Assembly: GCA_003523225.1 (NCBI GenBank)
Contig: DPGK01000004.1
Location: 141,698 to 174,848, forward strand
Direction: 5' to 3'
Origin: Clostridiales bacterium
Lineage (GTDB): Bacteria > Bacillota > Clostridia > Oscillospirales > CAG-272
Length of the DNA stretch: 33,151 nt
The position numbers and the translations under genes are program-made. This document shows positions 2,202 through 22,536 of this stretch, in pieces. The notes under the pieces are model-generated. The model had not been told where the DNA came from, did not search any database, and saw only the letters and a program-made list of their open reading frames with translations. Position 1 is the stretch's first letter. The number at the start of each line of letters is the position of its first letter.

Positions 2202-3167
2202 ATGAGCGATAGCGAAAAAAACTGTGCTGTAAACCGACGCGGGGGCAAAACAAGGCAAAAGCAGGAATTCGCGCGGACCGACCTTGCCTGCGAGTCCTGG
2301 GACGGCAGTGCCGGCGTTATATGCAGTGAGGAGAGCATAAATGCTGCGTCGGTGGACGTATCTGTGACAAGAATGAGGATAGTGACACGTGCCGCCGCCG
2401 AGCGATTGGGCAGAAGACGCGGAAATTACATCACCGCGGTGTCCGGCAGGAGCTTTGCGGAGTTTGACGAGCTTTCGGCAGAGGCTTTTTCGGGAATACT
2501 GAAAAATGAGCTGAGACAGCTTTGCGAATCGCTTTGCGGACGTAAAATAGATTCGGGATTCGGCGTGCTGATAGCAGGTCTTGGAAACTCTGCGATGACA
2601 GCCGATGCAGTAGGTCCGGAGTCAGCCGCCATGATCTCCGCAACACGGCATCTGCGTGAGCTGGAAGCCGGAATTTACGGTGCGCTCGGTTGCTCGGCGA
2701 TATCGGTAGTAGCTCCCGGAGTTCTCGGGCAGACCGGGATAGAGAGCGCCGAACTGCTTCGCGGTGCAGTAAGAGCGGCAAATCCTGATCTTGTAGTTGC
2801 GGTTGATGCGCTTGCGGCGCGCTCGTGCGAAAGGCTGGGACGGACGGTTCAGCTCTCGGACGCGGGAATAACGCCCGGTTCGGGCGTGGGAAACGAAAGG
2901 CAGGCGCTGACGCGAGCGACTCTCGGTGTTCCGGTGATCTCGATAGGCGTTCCGACTGTGGTCGATTCCTCGACTCTTGTATGGGAAGCACTTCAGAAAG
3001 CGGGAATGACCGGAGCGGACGCGGAGGACGAGCTTCCGCCGTCACTGCGCGAGGTGCTTGAAAACGGAAAAAGTTTTTTTGTGAGTCCGCGTGAGAGCGA
3101 TATAATAACCAAACAGGCGGCAAAAATAATTGCAGGAGCAATTGAAGGCGTATTCGGCGGCGGATAG
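2202..3167 (+). CDS. gpr: GPR endopeptidase (germination/spore protease)
   Basis: Aspartate-type protease that degrades the small acid-soluble proteins (SASPs) coating spore DNA when a spore germinates. The 321 residues match the family. The stretch GLGNSAMTADAVGP (about 126-139, with D135) and VDALAARS (201-208, with D202) carry the two conserved catalytic aspartates. The downstream GITPGSGVGNERQ (222-233) and GVPTVVDS (249-256) are family signatures. RTDLACE (25-31) resembles the SASP cleavage site that GPR uses for removing its own propeptide, so the protein is probably made as a zymogen. The start follows AGGAAGTG. spoIIP follows 62 bases downstream in the same order as in other Bacillota. 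In the model organism gpr is forespore-expressed; no convincing sigma-G promoter is visible here. Confidence 0.95.
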   Translation: MSDSEKNCAVNRRGGKTRQKQEFARTDLACESWDGSAGVICSEESINAASVDVSVTRMRIVTRAAAERLGRRRGNYITAVSGRSFAEFDELSAEAFSGILKNELRQLCESLCGRKIDSGFGVLIAGLGNSAMTADAVGPESAAMISATRHLRELEAGIYGALGCSAISVVAPGVLGQTGIESAELLRGAVRAANPDLVVAVDALAARSCERLGRTVQLSDAGITPGSGVGNERQALTRATLGVPVISIGVPTVVDSSTLVWEALQKAGMTGADAEDELPPSLREVLENGKSFFVSPRESDIITKQAAKIIAGAIEGVFGGG

Positions 3168-3189
3168 ACCGCACCGCATAATCCGGATG

Positions 3190-3219
3190 CCTCCGTCATA
3201 TCATTTTAAAAAACGGAGG
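3190..3219 (+). promoter_or_regulatory. Inverted repeat that can sequester the spoIIP ribosome binding site
   Basis: CCTCCGT (3190-3196) is exactly complementary to ACGGAGG (3213-3219), which contains the Shine-Dalgarno sequence of spoIIP; the stem can extend by two wobble pairs. The loop is 16 bases. In an mRNA reading through from gpr this stem would mask the ribosome binding site, while a transcript starting inside the loop would leave it open. Confidence 0.5.
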
Positions 3220-3229
3220 TGCCAAATCA

Positions 3230-4357
3230 ATGAAAGAGCAGGTGTACGGATATGGCAAAGATCACCTTGACGCTGATGAAAATGCGGAAGGGAAAAAGAG
3301 CATCGGCAAGGAGCGAGTGGATATTTTCGGTGAGTACGGCGAAAAGAAAGCTCCAGGCAGCGGAAAGCCGAGCAGACTCCCGGTAAAATATGAGGGCGGC
3401 ACGGCTGAAAGCACCGTACCGCCGACAAAAAACAAATCTTCGCTTATTACTCTTGTCTTGACTGTATTACTTCTTACGACCTCTTTCACGGCTCTTGCCT
3501 GTACTGTTGTGACGGGTATGGGCGGAGATCCGCGTGAAGCCGCAGGTGGATTTGCCGGGAATCTGCTTTTCGGCAGCACTCCCGAGATCACAGCTTACAC
3601 ACCGGAAGAAATGACAGGGGAAGCCACAAAGGCTACCAATGATGTCACTGCGGCGGGAGACGAAGCTGTCACCACAGCTCCGGCCGAGCACGGAGAGACT
3701 CCGGCGGAAAGCACGGATGAAGGCAACGAACAGACTGCGGTAACGACCGATGTCGGCTCTCAGACGGATCACACTGGCCTTATAAACAAAACCGGGTTTG
3801 ACATCAGCCTTGACGCATTGGTGGAGATGTGGGGGACGGCTGTCAGCTCAGGTCTGAAAAAAGGTGGCGTTCTGGTGGTGTGCACACATCCGTCGGAATG
3901 CTTTTCCGACGGCACGTCGGTCAAAGACGCTGCGGCGGCTCTTTGTCAGGCGCTTGAGGCGGCGGGGGTGTACACAGCTCAGTGTACGGGGGATTTTGAC
4001 ACGCCCGGGCGACTCGGCTCATATGCGAGAGCGCGCGAGGCGATAAGCGGAATGCTGAACAGCGGCAGCTTTGCACTTGTGATCGACGTTCACACCGGCG
4101 ACAGCCCCGGTCTGCTTGTCGGCGCGGCAGGGAGCGGAGAGGATGACGCCGGATGGCAGATGAATGCCGCGCTTGCCGCAATGGTCAACGATGAGCTGGA
4201 TACATACAGCGGCAGTGTTACCGTTGACGGCGGAAGGTATAATCAGGATCTGAGAGTGATTTCCTTGCACGCCGAGCTTGACGGAAGCCTTTCCGCATCG
4301 CGCGGTCTGCGCTCCGCTCGCATACTTGCCGACGCAGTAATAAAATTAATGAAGTGA
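3230..4357 (+). CDS. spoIIP: Stage II sporulation protein P (SpoIIP), peptidoglycan amidase/endopeptidase
   Basis: Septal peptidoglycan hydrolase of the engulfment machinery, which works with SpoIID and SpoIIM in the mother-cell membrane. The 375-residue protein has a charged cytoplasmic N-terminus (1-68), one membrane helix (about 71-95), a Thr/Ala/Glu-rich linker (about 120-185) and the SpoIIP hydrolase domain from about 210. Conserved family positions are recognisable: VVCTHPSE with H220, VIDVHTG with H288, GRYNQDL (335-341) and E349, followed by the closing helix SARILADAVIKL. The first block reads CTHPSE rather than the usual HTHTTE, so one of its histidines is absent. The start is fixed by GGAGG at 3215-3219. 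It follows gpr as in Bacillus and converges with the minus-strand gene ending at 4404. Confidence 0.93.
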   Translation: MKEQVYGYGKDHLDADENAEGKKSIGKERVDIFGEYGEKKAPGSGKPSRLPVKYEGGTAESTVPPTKNKSSLITLVLTVLLLTTSFTALACTVVTGMGGDPREAAGGFAGNLLFGSTPEITAYTPEEMTGEATKATNDVTAAGDEAVTTAPAEHGETPAESTDEGNEQTAVTTDVGSQTDHTGLINKTGFDISLDALVEMWGTAVSSGLKKGGVLVVCTHPSECFSDGTSVKDAAAALCQALEAAGVYTAQCTGDFDTPGRLGSYARAREAISGMLNSGSFALVIDVHTGDSPGLLVGAAGSGEDDAGWQMNAALAAMVNDELDTYSGSVTVDGGRYNQDLRVISLHAELDGSLSASRGLRSARILADAVIKLMK

Positions 4358-13005: not shown

Positions 13006-14838
13006 TTATTCCACCGTTACCGATTTCGCCAGATTGCGCGGATGGTCAACGTCACAGCCGCGCAGAAGTGCCGTCCTGTATGCCAGCAGCTGGGAGAACA
13101 CCACGCTTTGCAAAGGTGAGAGCAGCGGGTCGGCGGCGGGAAGTACAAACACATCGTCGGCGTATTCCTCGGGAGAGGGGAAGTCGGGAGCGCAAACCAG
13201 TATCACATATCCGCCGCGGCTTCTGACCTCGCGGATATTTCCCGTCATTTTATCATAATATCCCGGTTCTGTAGCAAGCGCTATGACAGGAGTTCCATCG
13301 GTCACAAGCGAGAGAGTTCCGTGCTTCAGCTCGCCGGCGGCGTATGCTTCGCTGTGGATATAGGATATTTCCTTCAGCTTGAGCGAGCATTCGGGGGCGG
13401 CGACGGCGTCTGCTCCGCGTCCGATAAAGAAGATATCGTTGTGAGTATACAGCTTTTGCGCAAGCGTATCGATCTCATCGCCGCGTGCGATTATTCCGGA
13501 AATGTGTCTCGGCAGTGTGGAGGAGATCTCACTGCAAAGCGCACGGGTGCGATCTGCGTTTATCTTGCCGCGAAGATATCCGAGCTTTATTGCAAGCATG
13601 GCGAGCACCGTGACCTGCGAGGCGTAGCCTTTGGTGGTGGCGACGGCAATTTCCGGTCCTGCGCCTGTGTACATTACCGCGTCGGATTCGCGCGCTATTG
13701 CCGAGCCGACCACATTGATTATTCCCAGCGAGGAAAGCCCGCGCTGATGTGCAAGCCTGAGCGCCTGAAGGGTGTCGGACGTTTCGCCGGATTGCGAAAC
13801 CGGTACCGCTATCGTGTGTCCGACGGTCACGGGCGGAGCATAGCGGTATTCGGATGCGAGGTCGACGGTTACGGGGATCTCCGCAAGCCGCTCTATCAGC
13901 ATACGACCTATAAGTCCCGCGTGCATGGCAGAGCCGCAGCCTATTATCGACACGCTGTCCGCAGAGCGCAGCAGCTCATCGTCGATTCCGTCGGCGGAGA
14001 AGTCGGGCAGACCGTCAGAATTTATACGGTGCGACGCGGCGCGGCGTATCACGTCCGGTTGCTCGTGTATCTCCTTCAGCATGAAGTGAGCGTAGCCTTC
14101 CTTGTCTGCCGCGTCCACCGTCCAGTCGATGGTTTCTGGCGTTCTTCTTGAAATTTTGCCGTCAGCTCCGTAAAACTCTATTCCGTCAGGGGTGAGTCGC
14201 GCTATCTCGCCTTCGGCAAGACGTATTATCTGACGTGTGTGCGGCAAAAGTGCGGGAATGTCGGAGGCGATATACGAGCCGTCAGGTGTATGCGCGGCAA
14301 TCAGCGGACTGTCTCGCCGCACCGCGTAAATTTCGTCGGGACGGTCTTTGAATATTATTCCGAAAGCGTATGACCCGGTAATGCGGGCAAGTGCGCCTTT
14401 TATTGCTTCAAGCGGATCGCGGTTCCGGCGGTACAGCATATCAATAAGATGTACCGCGCACTCGGTGTCGGTATCTCCGGCAAATCTGTAGCCTGCCGAT
14501 ATAAGCTCGCGGCGCAGTTCAAGATAATTTTCAATAATTCCGTTGTGAACTAAAACAAGGTTTTCCGAGATCTGCGGGTGAGAGTTCACCTCGCTTGGCA
14601 TTCCGTGGGTCGCCCAGCGGGTGTGACCTATCCCGCAGCAGCCTTCAACGCCGCCGCGCGCCTCGACTTCGCTGCACAGCTGTGCAACTCTGCCGGGACG
14701 TTTGACCGTCACTATGCCTTGCTCTCCGGTCACTGAAATTCCCGCCGAATCGTAGCCGCGGTATTCAAGCGCCCCAAGCCCGCGCAAAAGTATTTCCGCC
14801 GCCTGTTTTTTACCGGTATATCCGATTATTCCGCACAT
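13006..14838 (-). CDS. glmS: Glutamine--fructose-6-phosphate aminotransferase (isomerizing)
   Basis: Makes glucosamine-6-phosphate from fructose-6-phosphate and glutamine, the first committed step towards UDP-GlcNAc and peptidoglycan. The 610-residue length is standard. It begins MCGIIGYTGK, with Cys2 as the glutaminase nucleophile exposed after Met removal, and has the class II glutaminase block GHTRWATHG, two SIS domains (SIIGCGSAMHAG; SGETSDTLQALR) and the canonical C-terminus DVDHPRNLAKSVTVE. The start follows AAGGAG. It is the last gene of a glmM/acyltransferase/glmS cluster. The 105 bases upstream are too short and too AT-rich to hold the glmS ribozyme that controls this gene in many Bacillota, so another control is expected. 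Confidence 0.97.
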   Translation of the reverse strand: MCGIIGYTGKKQAAEILLRGLGALEYRGYDSAGISVTGEQGIVTVKRPGRVAQLCSEVEARGGVEGCCGIGHTRWATHGMPSEVNSHPQISENLVLVHNGIIENYLELRRELISAGYRFAGDTDTECAVHLIDMLYRRNRDPLEAIKGALARITGSYAFGIIFKDRPDEIYAVRRDSPLIAAHTPDGSYIASDIPALLPHTRQIIRLAEGEIARLTPDGIEFYGADGKISRRTPETIDWTVDAADKEGYAHFMLKEIHEQPDVIRRAASHRINSDGLPDFSADGIDDELLRSADSVSIIGCGSAMHAGLIGRMLIERLAEIPVTVDLASEYRYAPPVTVGHTIAVPVSQSGETSDTLQALRLAHQRGLSSLGIINVVGSAIARESDAVMYTGAGPEIAVATTKGYASQVTVLAMLAIKLGYLRGKINADRTRALCSEISSTLPRHISGIIARGDEIDTLAQKLYTHNDIFFIGRGADAVAAPECSLKLKEISYIHSEAYAAGELKHGTLSLVTDGTPVIALATEPGYYDKMTGNIREVRSRGGYVILVCAPDFPSPEEYADDVFVLPAADPLLSPLQSVVFSQLLAYRTALLRGCDVDHPRNLAKSVTVE

Positions 14839-14943: not shown

Positions 14944-15612
14944 TTATTTTCTCTTTACAATGTTATCCGGCGATTTTACAATGCATCCGGCAGGTATCAC
15001 GCCGCGCAGGTGCGTCAGCGGGTAAACCGAGCTTCCGCATCCGACCACAGTTCCGGGACTCAGTACGCAGCCGCAACCGATGTCTGCACCATCGCCGAGA
15101 AATGAGCCGACCTTGCGCAGTCCGGTTTCGTAGTCGCGCTTGCTGTGGATGACAACGTTTTTTCCGTCCGATTTAAGATTTGAGCAGACAGCTCCCGCCC
15201 CCATGTGCGCTCCGCGTCCGAGCACCGAATCGCCCACATAGTTATAATGCGGCACCTGAGCGCGGTTCATTATGAGGCAGTTTTTAAGCTCGGTGGAGTT
15301 GCCGATGACACAGCCCTCGCCGATAAGCACCCCGCCGCGCAGATATGCTCCGGGACGGAGCACGGTGCCGTGTCCTACCACGGCAGTTCCCTCAATAACT
15401 GCGGTAGGTGCGATCTTCACATCTCTGCCGACGAGAACGCCGTCAAAGAGCAGGGAATATCCCTCTGCACCCTCAGACAAAAGCCGTAGAATAAAGTCTT
15501 TTATCCGCGGCAGTAGCTCCCACGGGTATTCAATGCCATCAAACAGAGGTGAAAAAAGAGGGGGAATGTTAGCAAACAGGTCGGAGTTTTTTATCATATC
15601 GCAGTCGTTCAT
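14944..15612 (-). CDS. Left-handed beta-helix (hexapeptide repeat) acyltransferase, GlmU C-domain-like
   Basis: 222 residues. A short helical N-terminus (1-55, including FDGIEYPWELLPRIKDFI) precedes an extended run of hexapeptide repeats such as VKIAPTAVIEGTAVVGHGTVLRPG, IGEGCVIGNSTELKN and LGDGADIGCGCVLSPGTVV. This is the fold of the acetyltransferase half of GlmU, without the uridylyltransferase half. Its position between glmM and glmS suggests acetylation of glucosamine-1-phosphate or a related sugar-nucleotide step. The motif NYVGDSVLGRGAHMGAGAVCSNLKSDG resembles the GlmU acetyl-CoA/sugar-binding region. The exact substrate is inferred from context only. Cys residues are unusually frequent in the final coils. 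Confidence 0.75.
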   Translation of the reverse strand: MNDCDMIKNSDLFANIPPLFSPLFDGIEYPWELLPRIKDFILRLLSEGAEGYSLLFDGVLVGRDVKIAPTAVIEGTAVVGHGTVLRPGAYLRGGVLIGEGCVIGNSTELKNCLIMNRAQVPHYNYVGDSVLGRGAHMGAGAVCSNLKSDGKNVVIHSKRDYETGLRKVGSFLGDGADIGCGCVLSPGTVVGCGSSVYPLTHLRGVIPAGCIVKSPDNIVKRK

Positions 15613-15637: not shown

Positions 15638-15693
15638 CTTGATCGTCATCACGCGGTTATGCGACGTTTTACGCCCGCGTAATGACGGTCAAG
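15638..15693. repeat. Large 19-bp imperfect inverted repeat between glmM and the acyltransferase gene
   Basis: Arms 15638-15656 (starts CTTGATCGTCATC) and 15675-15693 (ends ATGACGGTCAAG) pair over 19 positions with two mismatches or wobbles, loop 18 bases. No T-run follows on the minus strand, so it is not an ordinary terminator. In the polycistronic RNA it would form a strong hairpin just before the next ribosome binding site, a possible processing or stability element. Confidence 0.6.
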
Positions 15694-15713: not shown

Positions 15714-17360
15714 TCATTCACAGCAGTAACCGCGCTTTTTGATTACAGCGGCAAGCTTTCCGGCATATGCCTCGCAGTCGTCGGCGCTTTCACACTCGAC
15801 CATTATGCGTATCACAGGCTCGGTGCCTGATTCACGCAGAAGGACACGGCCGCGTCCTCCGATAGCGTCGTTTATTTCGGAAAGGCGGCGCTTTACTTCC
15901 TCGTCAGCCATCACCGCGGACTTTGAGGTTACCTTTATGCTGCGGCACAGCTGTGGATAGAGCTTTACCGGTTTTGTCAGCTTTGAGAGAGTCGTCTTGT
16001 TGTCAAGCATCTCCTCGGTTATCATAATAGCGGTGAGAATGCCGTCTCCGGTGGTGGCATATTTCTGAAGGATTATATGCCCCGACTGCTCGCCGCCCAG
16101 ACGGTAGCCGTTCTGCTGCATACATTCGTACACAAAGCGGTCTCCTACGGCGGTCACGGCGCAGTGAATGCCTTCCGCCTCAAGGGAATTTATAAGTCCG
16201 CTGTTGGACATCACTGTGGCAACGACGGTGTTGCCGTCAAGATTTCCGCGTTCCTTGAGGCGCTTGGCAAGGATGTAGAGGATATGATCTCCGTTTACCT
16301 CGTTTCCTTTTTCGTCCACCGCTATGCAGCGGTCGGCGTCGCCGTCAAAGGCAAAGCCGAGGTCAAGATGATTTTCCCGCACGAACTCCCGTAGGGCTTC
16401 CGTATGGGTTGAACCAAAGCCCGAATTGATATTTGTGCCATCGGGGGAAGCGCCTATGACATACGTTTGTGCACCCAGCGCGTCAAATACCGCCTTGGCT
16501 ATCATCCACGAGGCGCCGTTGGCGCAGTCGAGTCCTACGCGAAGGTTGCGGTACGAATGGGATGCCACTGAAATAAGGTATCCGACATATCTGTTACGTC
16601 CGGCAACATAGTCAACGATGCAGCCAATCCGTTCACGGCGGGCAAGGGGAAGGTCGTCGCCGTCAATGCCAAGGCGCGCCATGTCTCCGTCGACGTATGC
16701 CTCGATAAGCGAGGCTGCCGCGTCGTCTATTTTCTCGCCGTACCTGTTGACCAGCTTAATGCCGTTGTCATAATATTGGTTGTGTGAGGCTGAAATCATT
16801 ACGCCGCAGTCGAATTCGTCCTGCTTTGTAACATATGAAACGCTGGGTGTGGTTGTGACATGGAGCATATATACGTCAGCCCCCGAAGCGGTAAGTCCTG
16901 CGACGATGGAGTATTCAAGCATATAGCTTGAACGGCGCGTGTCCTTGCCTATGACGATGCGCGGACGGTAGCCGGGCTTGCGGCAGCCCGAAAGCGGGGA
17001 AGCAAAGTACCATCCGAGAAAACGCCCGACTTTGTACGCCTGCTCCGAGGTCAGCGACACGTTTGCCTCGCCGCGGAAGCCGTCAGTGCCGAAATATTTG
17101 TTGCCGCGTGGCGCGTCGCCATCCTCGGAAGCACTGCTTCCGGATGTGTCGCGGTGTATCACAACGTCATTGTGAAGCAGTTCGTCCGCAGATACCGAAA
17201 ATAACTCGCAGATAAGCAGAACCTTGTCAATGTGCGGCAGTGACTGATCCATCTCCCATTTTGATACCGACTGCCGCGATACGCCGAGCTTTTCGGCAAG
17301 CTGTTCCTGGGATATCTTGTTTGCAATGCGCAGATGCGTTATCTTCTCGCCAATGGTCAT
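15714..17360 (-). CDS. glmM: Phosphoglucosamine mutase with an N-terminal XRE-type DNA-binding domain (fusion)
   Basis: Interconverts glucosamine-6-P and glucosamine-1-P. The ATG at 17360 is chosen because GGAGG lies just upstream and the HTH starts there, giving 548 residues instead of the usual ~450. Residues 1-65 are a complete Cro/CI-type helix-turn-helix (SQEQLAEKLGVSRQSVSKWE, 18-37), followed by a short Ser/Asp-rich linker (66-86). The mutase begins at NKYFGTDGFRG (88-97) and keeps the phosphoserine loop ISASHN (S192), metal site DGDADR (339-344), sugar loop GGEQSGH (422-428) and phosphate site RESGTEP (509-515). The residue after ASHN is Gln where Pro is usual. The open frame has no stop across the junction. 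It heads the glmM-acyltransferase-glmS operon, so I infer a regulator-enzyme that may control its own operon. Confidence 0.93.
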   Translation of the reverse strand: MTIGEKITHLRIANKISQEQLAEKLGVSRQSVSKWEMDQSLPHIDKVLLICELFSVSADELLHNDVVIHRDTSGSSASEDGDAPRGNKYFGTDGFRGEANVSLTSEQAYKVGRFLGWYFASPLSGCRKPGYRPRIVIGKDTRRSSYMLEYSIVAGLTASGADVYMLHVTTTPSVSYVTKQDEFDCGVMISASHNQYYDNGIKLVNRYGEKIDDAAASLIEAYVDGDMARLGIDGDDLPLARRERIGCIVDYVAGRNRYVGYLISVASHSYRNLRVGLDCANGASWMIAKAVFDALGAQTYVIGASPDGTNINSGFGSTHTEALREFVRENHLDLGFAFDGDADRCIAVDEKGNEVNGDHILYILAKRLKERGNLDGNTVVATVMSNSGLINSLEAEGIHCAVTAVGDRFVYECMQQNGYRLGGEQSGHIILQKYATTGDGILTAIMITEEMLDNKTTLSKLTKPVKLYPQLCRSIKVTSKSAVMADEEVKRRLSEINDAIGGRGRVLLRESGTEPVIRIMVECESADDCEAYAGKLAAVIKKRGYCCE

Positions 17361-17418
17361 GATTATCCTCCGTTTTAATTTAGTTTGACGCTGTATTGGC
17401 AGTTTATTCAGTTTGCTG

Positions 17419-17447
17419 ATTATATGATACCACATCGGGGTTGTCAA
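17419..17447 (-). promoter_or_regulatory. Consensus sigma-A promoter of the XRE-glmM operon
   Basis: On the minus strand TTGACA (17442-17447), 17 bases, TATAAT (17419-17424): perfect on all counts. Between it and the start, AAACT recurs three times on the minus strand (plus-strand AGTTT at 17382, 17401 and 17410), a possible operator in the 5' leader. The gene-free stretch 17361-17773 also holds ATTGTGCAA on the minus strand (plus 17487-17495), and a terminator for the opposite neighbour. Confidence 0.85.
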
Positions 17448-17667
17448 ATCAAGCAATTTTTAATGGAATGTTTGTCAACTGTCGGTTGCACAATTGTTTT
17501 TTTCAGCTGCCGCTTTTCATTGAAAGAGAAAGATCAGATTATTTATATCGCAAAAAACGCGATTTTATGATGAAAATATTAAAAAACCGCACGTAATAAA
17601 GCCCCGAATGGATCATTTTATGATCAAAAAAGAAAAAACGCGCAGTGTAAATCAAACGCGTCACGCA

Positions 17668-19684: not shown

Positions 19685-20008
19685 ATGAAAACAACAGAAA
19701 AACGCAGACACATTTTCGGACCTATCGCTTTTATCCTTGCATTTGCAATGCTGGCGGCATCTTCGATGCCAGTCGGCGCCTCTGATGACGAAGCGTTAAG
19801 CACATCCGGCATTGATGCACAAGAATGTGTACCGATAGCTGGGGAGACGTGGGTGTTAGGTCTTCTTGATGGAGATCTGTCACTCGATCAGTTGAAAAAC
19901 GCTTCGCTGTCAGATAACGATCTTCCGTATGTAATCAGTCGTTCGCTGGCTAATGAAAGACAGCATGTCAACAGGCTTATGAACAGGAACCGGACGATTA
20001 TACTGTGA
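19685..20008 (+). CDS. N-terminal fragment of a frameshifted secreted M23 peptidase
   Basis: 107 residues starting with a clear signal peptide (KRRHIFGPIAFILAFAMLAASS, cleavage near VGASDD), preceded by AGAAAGGA. The frame ends at 20008, overlapping the next frame. Reading in the other frame just upstream of the next start gives YEQEPDDYTV running smoothly into MFQNLDGGKTVYIF, while this frame ends in the unlikely NRNRTIIL. One T missing from a TTT run near 19976-19980 (CTTATG instead of CTTTATG) would join ...HVNRL to YEQEPDD.... So this is the amino end of the following protein, carrying its export signal. Either a real mutation or a sequence error. Confidence 0.75.
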   Translation: MKTTEKRRHIFGPIAFILAFAMLAASSMPVGASDDEALSTSGIDAQECVPIAGETWVLGLLDGDLSLDQLKNASLSDNDLPYVISRSLANERQHVNRLMNRNRTIIL

Positions 20009-22536
20009 TGTTCCAAAATCTTGATGGCGGAAAAACAGTGTACATATTCTCTGTTCCGGTTAAGAGTCAGTCAATCGAAGGGTCGGTGAGCGATATGCGG
20101 GCAGAGGACGTTATATCGCAGACCACTGTGGCAACGGCAGGAGTAGGATTTGACTGTACATCAGAAGCTGCTTCGGTGACATTTGGCGGCGATTTTCTTG
20201 CGGAACGGCTTGGGAATTCTGCTTCAGACCATCCTTTATTTGATTATAACATCGGGCATTGTGACGTAATGCGCATTGGAAGCGCAGAGCTTTACGGAGG
20301 TATCTCCTCAGACGGAGTCGATATTACACGCTCAGCCCGTGAATGGGGCAAGGCATCTGATGAGCAGAAAAACACTTTTTCAATCGTTTCAGCAGACCTT
20401 CAGAATATGTCGGGAAGTACTGCAATTATAGGCAATTCCGTGACAGCGGGCGATATCATATGTATTTCAATGACATATTCTACAATAGCCGGAGAATACG
20501 CATTGAAGCATGATACGGCTAATAAGTATCTTTCCAATGTGAATAGTAGCCTCATGAGCAATAGTCTCAGAATGCTTTCATCACTTTACGCTCCTCGGGG
20601 TAAATGGCTGCTTGAGTATCAGACATACGGAAACTATATGATAAGATCGCAGTCAAATCAGGATAATTATCTTATCGCAGTGTCGGATACTGAAGTTGAA
20701 GTGGGCGACCATGAGGACGGAACGTGCGTATGGTTCTATGATATGGATGATGGGAGGTTGTCGCCGTCAAACGATCACACAGTTGCCCTTGGGTCAGATA
20801 TGTCAATATGCGATCTGACTGTTTCAGGCTCGTGGTCTTTTACAAACCATGTTGATTTTGTTGAAACTACCGGCATATATATCCGGCTTCCTAACTCAAC
20901 TACCGACATCAAGGCAATATTCGGTAAGTCGGGTGAAACATTTGAATTTCAAGTAGTATATGTTCCGTCAAATTCCACATATAAAAATATATCATTGACG
21001 CTTCCGGATGAAATTGAAGATGTAAATACTGGTAGCGAAATAGCATTCAATGATGAATATGAGGGGAGCATAACTATATCGTATGCATATAAATCACTGA
21101 GTGCGCACATCATACCGACTATAGTCGGGTCTGATAGCTCAACAGTAAGGCTTCAGAATATGATATTTAATTTATGTCAGGTATCGGGATCGAATGTTAA
21201 GTATCTGACATCAAATACCTCCGCGGATGGTGTGACATATTCGCAGAGTCAGGCGCATAGCTCAACAAACACAACGCTTAATATAAAAAAACCTGATGAT
21301 TACAATACACAGTTTTACATTTGTGCCGTCTCCTCCGGCTCTGACCTTTTCACGGTAAAGTCGGTGAAAAGCGACAAGTATCTTTCTGCCGGAGTCTCAG
21401 GAACGCTCAGTCTCGCTTCTGCAGCGTCAGACAACACTACTTGGCGCATACTTGAACTTTCCGACGGTAGCTTTGCTCTATGGAATCCAACTACAACACG
21501 CTTTCTGAATGTGAATACATCTGGAACACCGGTTGCTGGAGCAGACATAAGCAATACGCATTGGACATTCAGAATAGGAGGAGTGTATCAGCTTGTCAAC
21601 GCCTCGACGGGTAAATATATGACAGTCCAAGATGGGTATGATACCGATCCTTCAAATTCGGATAATAATATCACAGTCAACATCGTTACAGAGAGCGTTA
21701 ATGCTGCGGGTTCATTGGAAGATCTTGATTCCAACCAACATTACAGAATCGTTTATAAGGATGATATTGGCGGATATCTTCTTTATCCCATTTGCAGTAT
21801 GAACGGAAGCCGACGTGTGATAGGAAAAGCTTCTTCCGGAGCGGGACAGGTGGTGCTGAAAAATTACAGTTCTACGTCAATGGATAAGGTTGATATAACA
21901 TACGCAGGAACGGGAGCGTCATATACTGTAAAGTGTGGGAGCTACGCCATGGCAGATTCAGAAAGTAGCGTAGTGTACAGCAGTTATTCGTCCTCAGCTA
22001 CAAACCAAAAATGGACATTTACGGCGGATTATTCTCGCATTCGTGATGAACTTCAATTCTCCGGTATAGACATAGTGTTTCCTGTTGGCGGTGATCCTAG
22101 TATAACAAGTGGGTATGGATTTCGTGAGTATACAGGATATCGCTTCCACGACGGTGTGGATATTGGGGTATATAATGTGGGCTTAAAAGCCCCATTTGAT
22201 GGTACAATTGTTTTTGTTGGAACAAATTCAAGTGATGAACGCGGATTGTACATTGTATTGAAATCAAATGAATACAGTAATCTTTATACCCATTTCTATC
22301 ATCTATCAAGTATAGACGTTATAGAAAACCAAGTAGTATCTAAAGGAGAAACAATTGGGCTAACGGGTTCTACTGGTTTGGGTTCAGGAGCACATTTGCA
22401 TTTGATTTTTTCTGCTTCGAGTGGAAATGGACCAAATAATTATATTCATACATTTGACCCACTGTGGTTTTATCCAAATATTCAATTTTCACGAAACGAT
22501 AGTACAGATAGTATAATTGGAGGTATTAGGCAATGA
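20005..22536 (+). CDS. Secreted M23 metallopeptidase with ricin-like repeats (main part of the frameshifted gene)
   Basis: 843 residues in the open frame from a GTG that is probably not the true start: the signal peptide lies in the preceding fragment, one frame away. The middle (about 170-330 and 430-660) contains several stretches resembling ricin-type beta-trefoil units, such as YLSAGVSGTLSLASAASDNTTWRI and YQLVNASTGKYMTVQDG, usually used for carbohydrate binding. The C-terminal 170 residues are an M23 (LytM-type) domain: TSGYGFREY, RFHDGVDIG with the zinc His and Asp, and GAHLHLIF with the HxH motif. All zinc ligands are present, so the domain should cut peptidoglycan cross-bridges if exported. 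The M23-coding DNA is noticeably AT-richer than the preceding part. Confidence 0.85.
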   Translation: MMFQNLDGGKTVYIFSVPVKSQSIEGSVSDMRAEDVISQTTVATAGVGFDCTSEAASVTFGGDFLAERLGNSASDHPLFDYNIGHCDVMRIGSAELYGGISSDGVDITRSAREWGKASDEQKNTFSIVSADLQNMSGSTAIIGNSVTAGDIICISMTYSTIAGEYALKHDTANKYLSNVNSSLMSNSLRMLSSLYAPRGKWLLEYQTYGNYMIRSQSNQDNYLIAVSDTEVEVGDHEDGTCVWFYDMDDGRLSPSNDHTVALGSDMSICDLTVSGSWSFTNHVDFVETTGIYIRLPNSTTDIKAIFGKSGETFEFQVVYVPSNSTYKNISLTLPDEIEDVNTGSEIAFNDEYEGSITISYAYKSLSAHIIPTIVGSDSSTVRLQNMIFNLCQVSGSNVKYLTSNTSADGVTYSQSQAHSSTNTTLNIKKPDDYNTQFYICAVSSGSDLFTVKSVKSDKYLSAGVSGTLSLASAASDNTTWRILELSDGSFALWNPTTTRFLNVNTSGTPVAGADISNTHWTFRIGGVYQLVNASTGKYMTVQDGYDTDPSNSDNNITVNIVTESVNAAGSLEDLDSNQHYRIVYKDDIGGYLLYPICSMNGSRRVIGKASSGAGQVVLKNYSSTSMDKVDITYAGTGASYTVKCGSYAMADSESSVVYSSYSSSATNQKWTFTADYSRIRDELQFSGIDIVFPVGGDPSITSGYGFREYTGYRFHDGVDIGVYNVGLKAPFDGTIVFVGTNSSDERGLYIVLKSNEYSNLYTHFYHLSSIDVIENQVVSKGETIGLTGSTGLGSGAHLHLIFSASSGNGPNNYIHTFDPLWFYPNIQFSRNDSTDSIIGGIRQ

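Follow-up and report, generated by a model that had tools for sequence, protein, structure and literature searches.

A conserved fusion of phosphoglucosamine mutase with an XRE-type helix-turn-helix domain as a probable regulator of its own amino-sugar operon

In the 33,151-nucleotide stretch of Clostridiales DNA analyzed here (the window), the phosphoglucosamine mutase GlmM carries an N-terminal helix-turn-helix (HTH) domain of the XRE type, and this fusion, HTH-GlmM, is real and conserved. From what could be computed, namely the fusion, its conservation, the content of its operon and a palindromic site together with its link to the HTH, we consider it very probable that HTH-GlmM is a working GlmM which at the same time regulates transcription of the amino-sugar operon encoding it, most likely by repression (Table 1). 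The argument for binding to DNA is strong and that for repression moderate, and the sensing of a metabolite through the mutase domain is a plausible conjecture.

Table 1. Positions, in the window, of the fusion gene, its upstream elements and the neighboring amino-sugar genes
Feature	Position	Strand	Basis
HTH-GlmM fusion, 548 aa	15714..17360	-	ORF translation, Pfam, NCBIfam
Cro/CI-type HTH, residues 1-65, helix VSRQSVSKWE	17166..17360	-	HTH_3, 52 bits
GlmM part, residues 88-545	15726..17099	-	TIGR01455, 500.1 bits; GlmM structure alignment
Ribosome binding site GGAGG, before the ATG	17367..17371	-	read in the sequence
Consensus promoter, TTGACA (17447-17442)-17-TATAAT (17424-17419)	17419..17447	-	12/12 matches
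Putative O2, degenerate, downstream of O1 at an offset of 22 bp; right half (ATTGC) recognizable, left half not	17453..17467	-	by eye
Putative O1, GCAACCGACAGTTGA, one mismatch to GCAAC-N5-GTTGC	17475..17489	-	motif scan
Left-handed beta-helix acetyltransferase, putative GlcN-1-P acetyltransferase	14944..15612	-	TIGR03992
GlmS	13006..14838	-	TIGR01135, 708.3 bits, cut-off 418.05

As the initial annotation had proposed, a complete Cro/CI-type HTH is joined in frame to a full-length GlmM: the continuous frame is free of internal stops, HTH_3 matches residues 10-61 above its Pfam cut-off of 23 bits, all four PGM_PMM domains lie between residues 88 and 537, and the protein passes the NCBIfam glmM model (cut-off 447.55), with the GlmM structures 7ojr and 3pdk as top solved-structure matches over residues 87-542. 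The ribosome binding site directly before the HTH and the perfect consensus promoter described there were also recovered. An artefact of frameshift or assembly was rejected in view of the 100% identical protein (P0002) recorded on 59 contigs and of the HTH Pfam domains found in 119 of the 120 listed homologues (at least 69% identity; 8000 scored). The one homologue lacking them, P0037, corresponds to the window sequence with its start set at Met37, within the HTH. Among the matches listed from a plasmid collection, none covers the HTH part. Regarding a second start near 17105, the other point raised against the fusion, the 10 codons that precede the GlmM domain in the window contain no ATG, GTG or TTG, the nearest start-like codon being a GTG 21 codons before the domain. 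Production of a stand-alone GlmM from the window gene is thus unlikely; internal starts may be used in some fused relatives, as 15 of the 45 fused genes have a start-like codon within these 10 codons, which is an ATG in five of them.

The catalytic-serine, metal (three-Asp), sugar and phosphate motifs, announced as intact, were all four found in the GlmM part of the window protein, in which Gln follows ASHN at a place occupied by Pro in 40 of the 45 fused genes. By pattern search, the serine and phosphate motifs are kept in all 45 fused genes, and strict DGD[AG]DR and strict GEQSGH in 39 each; those inspected among the 11 deviating genes retain DGDxDR and GExSGH, except for the metal motif of L034, which was not found with the pattern used. 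A second GlmM-like gene (39-57% identity) is listed in six of the 45 fusion genomes and a second fusion in G044. Because no other GlmM-like copy was found in 38 of the 45 (incomplete metagenome-assembled genomes, MAGs, among them), the fused protein presumably interconverts GlcN-6-P and GlcN-1-P as GlmM does. An AlphaFold model of the window protein built from 20 sequences has a mean pLDDT of 75, with values near 90 for residues 1-40, of 73-76 for residues 41-70 and below 50 for the linker, so that no route of coupling between HTH and mutase can be read from it.

The fusion genomes (G001-G045, many of them MAGs) and 33 HTH-less relatives come from a scan of species genomes in which the best 80 of 593 loci were kept, a selection biased to close relatives. 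By our own classification, 45 of these 80 loci are fused, or 46 of 81 rows with the window, and they belong to Clostridia and to one branch of Bacilli-labelled MAGs. Even samples were drawn around the fusion genome G001: in the family sample of 200 genomes, 19 matches started from query residue 1 (one at residue 12) and one further fusion was split between two contigs, and in the class sample of 391 genomes 15 had a fusion at an E-value limit of 1e-150, at which short fragments would be missed. Fusions are thus a minority in both the family and the class sampled. In the tree built from the GlmM region, the presence or absence of the HTH takes two changes to explain, which can be read as a single gain plus a loss in L039; the pooled tree takes four, the HTH-less L039, L205, L230 and L231 having fused genes as nearest rows. 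The expectation that fusions would form a clade next to glmS was hence borne out for the tree, in one part of which they cluster, and not for the neighborhood, where glmS is seldom the neighbor and nagB is the usual third gene. In four loci of Oscillospiraceae type (L061, L064, L066, L078), a separate HTH gene, with 35-42% identity to the fused HTH, lies about 130-210 bp behind an HTH-less glmM. As for the host of the window, adjacent germination protease and SpoIIP-like genes (2202-4357) indicate that it is probably a spore former, and an 843-aa protein combining a ricin-type lectin region with an M23 peptidase domain is encoded at 20005-22536.

Upstream of fused genes, a palindrome, GCAACYNNNRGTTGC, was first spotted by eye; the motif was then fixed as GCAAC-N5-GTTGC and counted in the 200 bp before the start. 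In 44 fused genes including the window, 30 had an exact site, five a site with one mismatch (the window among them), two a site with two mismatches and seven none; this count was made without L049, whose upstream sequence is missing, and L030 and L039 were added later. Among 34 unfused rows, none had a site with 0-1 mismatch in the same 200 bp and three had one with two mismatches, the true control being 33 since L024 proved to be a fused gene cut at the contig start. Elsewhere, only four exact copies occur in 1.126 Mb of loci, shuffled upstream regions contain on average 0.005 regions with an exact site, and in the 33 kb of the window nothing but O1 matches the motif at one mismatch or better. 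It lies just outside 17380-17450, the stretch that the initial annotation had suggested for DNA-binding tests.

Additional loci, fetched after the motif had been fixed (14 fused from the family sample and 13 from the class sample, omitting genomes already used, four fused and one unfused, and the fragments L201 and L216, devoid of upstream sequence), gave the same picture, with a site in 27 of 27 fused genes (24 exact, three with one mismatch) vs none of 14 HTH-less ones (Fisher 3e-11). All 27 sites have a pyrimidine at position 6 and a purine at position 10. Pooled at one mismatch or fewer within 400 bp upstream, and with relatedness left in, the count is 64 of 72 fused genes (eight having no such site) vs 0 of 48 HTH-less ones. 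The site is also absent upstream of all four HTH-less loci nested among fused ones, and the four independent pairs of HTH and no-HTH lineages on the tree all agree, with p 0.125, the lowest value possible with four pairs. As is usual for XRE regulators, HTH-GlmM would thus have a palindromic operator near its own promoter.

When 30 loci with a far-upstream site were aligned on this first site (three of them picked at two mismatches or at an unusual position), a weak -35 TTG could be seen at about +37, with a -10 at about +60. Mean mismatches to the palindrome fell to 4.9 of 10 at offset 22, vs 6.5-8.8 at 20 other offsets, and offset 22 again gave the lowest mean (5.85), ahead of 23 (6.19), in the 27 loci fetched later. 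These minima point to a second, degenerate site two helical turns downstream of the first and directly before the -35. Upstream of the Bacilli-labelled fused genes of L018, L020-L023, L027 and L040, a second shared element resembling GTAAA-N6-TTNAC was noticed by eye, including in some that have no palindrome.

The palindrome is not restricted to HTH-GlmM genes. Exact sites occur in 40 of the 41 fusion genomes scanned, mostly one to five each (15 in G009, 8 in G010), in a scan where a reversed control pattern yields up to seven copies per genome. Of 45 different sites inspected, 11 precede fusion genes, eight other XRE genes and two nahK-like kinase genes (L092, L106), and 24 are in or before other genes; that most exact sites elsewhere in the genomes inspected lie in or before unrelated genes speaks against the explanation proposed here. 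In the eight XRE genes, whose recognition helix resembles that of the fusion, the palindrome stands 49-122 bp upstream (L084, L103, L107, L144, L145, L146, L150, L155), and it looks like a sequence through which XRE proteins with a VSRQSVSKWE-like helix usually regulate themselves. These genes thereby suggest the likely target of the fused HTH; as they share the palindrome within the same genomes, cross-talk or binding by paralogues is also possible. Covariation of the recognition helix was given little weight: a site accompanies 34 of 35 intact helices vs two of nine changed ones in the first set (three of 10 after L030 was added), while the tree test has four pairs (p 0.25) and the Val-to-Ile helices of L225, L227 and L228 retain exact sites.

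Taken together, the HTH-linked, operator-like site and the amino-sugar operon support the earlier suggestion of a DNA-binding regulator of amino-sugar genes. Beyond these computed features, we infer DNA binding itself, the geometry of the dimer, the sign of regulation and any coupling to a ligand. GlmM forms an M-shaped dimer (PMC8573169), and for this reason HTH-GlmM is expected to offer two HTH domains to GCAAC-N5-GTTGC before the operon. A second dimer would probably sit on the weaker O2, two helical turns away and abutting the -35 region, and binding would most likely repress, so that more enzyme would mean less operon output, with a ligand in the mutase domain possibly tuning this repression. 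HTH-GlmM might instead activate the operon from the same site, as lambda CI does at PRM. Class II activators bind directly upstream of the -35, and this is where the sites lie in 30 loci. Repression is favored, however, because seven Bacilli-labelled loci have the site only 26-33 bp from the ATG (in L018, by eye, downstream of the -10) and because a promoter of perfect consensus such as that of the window should need no activator; we hence judge activation possible in Clostridia and, all in all, rather unlikely.

A rival reading, in which the palindrome is the target of a different XRE protein encoded in the same genome and the HTH of the fusion is a relic or a structural module, would fit the XRE genes of similar helix that carry this site upstream, and is nevertheless improbable in our view. 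HTH-less relatives, including the four nested among fused ones, do not have the site, and the fused HTH is conserved and under protein-level selection, since its dN is lower than its dS in all 10 pairs computed, yet higher than the dN of GlmM in seven of them. Least credible of all is a role of the palindrome as an RNA hairpin or terminator in place of an operator: it is indeed a short inverted repeat, but its stem is followed by A and not T, its symmetric flanks leave a T run on neither strand, and it occurs together with the HTH and upstream of the promoter in most loci. The terminator reading was rejected. A further step beyond regulation by HTH-GlmM would be that the state of the mutase, either bound GlcN-6-P or sugar bisphosphate or the phospho-serine, controls DNA binding by the HTH and makes the protein an amino-sugar sensor that sets the supply of cell-wall precursors. 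We advance this tentatively, with rather more doubt than confidence. If true, precursor supply (nagB or glmS, the acetyltransferase and sometimes nahK) would be set by GlmM, in genomes that yielded no glmS ribozyme and in lineages of which the majority have apparently lost GlmS.

The usual order of the operon is HTH-GlmM, the acetyltransferase and then often NagB, with GlmS in the window. An acetyltransferase was found near the fusion, almost without exception as the next gene, in 40 of the 45 fused loci; that of the window resembles the C-terminal part of archaeal-type GlmU, matching TIGR03992 over this part with 140.5 bits, below the full-length cut-off. Of the 41 fused loci with usable gene lists, 19 have a nagB-like gene among those that come next, and nagB scores above the TIGR00502 cut-off in 38 of the 45 fusion genomes, at matching places (e.g., G001:C14), whereas glmS lies inside the operon in the window, L036, L221 and L223. 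In the HTH-less L230, the acetyltransferase and nagB still follow glmM. The gap between glmM and the acetyltransferase, a few bases in most relatives, is 101 bp in the window and contains a strong imperfect hairpin (15638-15693, 19-nt arms, 89% complementary); a 117-nt stretch here folds at -36 kcal/mol (z -4.6), with no clear T run after it.

Full-length GlmS (E < 1e-100) was found in 13 of the 45 fusion genomes vs 30 of the 33 HTH-less ones (Fisher 4e-8, relatedness left in). With nagB in 38 of the 45, this suggests salvage or a reversed NagB. In Akkermansia, according to PMC5902328, GlmS is lost, NagB kept and GlcNAc then required, NagB being unable to form GlcN-6-P at physiological conditions. 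The glmS ribozyme (RF00234) was detected in none of the 45 fusion genomes (over 40 with stricter filters) vs eight of the 33 HTH-less ones, a difference explained in part by the many fusion genomes in which GlmS was likewise not found, since the ribozyme is not expected where GlmS is absent; it was dismissed as a regulator of the window operon, as no Rfam match occurs in the window. Before separately located glmS genes, the operator was found in none of seven at one mismatch or fewer. Kinases which we take to be nahK-like are present in 27 of the 45 fusion genomes, and 30 such loci include three exact sites upstream (0.04 expected), one of them without the pyrimidine/purine pattern, and one site with one mismatch; occurring in only some genomes, the operator was not retained as a general feature of these genes. 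In L043 (G042:C2:9091-10212), a nahK-like gene lies within the HTH-GlmM operon itself, between the acetyltransferase and nagB.

Among the titles and abstract openings of the open-licence literature, no report of the fusion or its site was found, and what appears new here is the operator-like palindrome common to fused genes and tied to their HTH. The automatic label 'phosphoglucosamine mutase' conceals the regulator part of this protein. If our proposal is true, an enzyme of peptidoglycan-precursor synthesis would itself control the transcription of its operon, at a defined operator. This would be a protein-based way of keeping amino sugars in balance, in addition to the glmS ribozyme and GlmY/GlmZ/RapZ, and would operate in gut and rumen bacteria, most of which yielded no GlmS.

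Known systems offer partial parallels. NadR of enteric bacteria is a biosynthetic enzyme with an XRE-type HTH at its N-terminus, as HTH-GlmM is, and regulates genes of its own pathway; its enzyme and pathway are however unrelated, and its regulation has been tested whereas that of HTH-GlmM is read from sequence. BirA, both biotin ligase and repressor, likewise has an N-terminal DNA-binding domain and binds as a dimer to the operator of its own pathway, as proposed for HTH-GlmM, but through a winged helix and not an XRE domain, at the biotin operon and with proven ligand coupling. The glmS ribozyme, which controls GlcN-6-P supply in many Firmicutes, differs in being RNA and not protein. Finally, stand-alone bacterial GlmM (TIGR01455; 7ojr, 3pdk) shares the mutase part and active-site motifs with HTH-GlmM and is without the HTH and, in the 48 HTH-less relatives, without the operator upstream; its known moonlighting, as described in PMC8573169, is the inhibition of the c-di-AMP cyclase CdaA.
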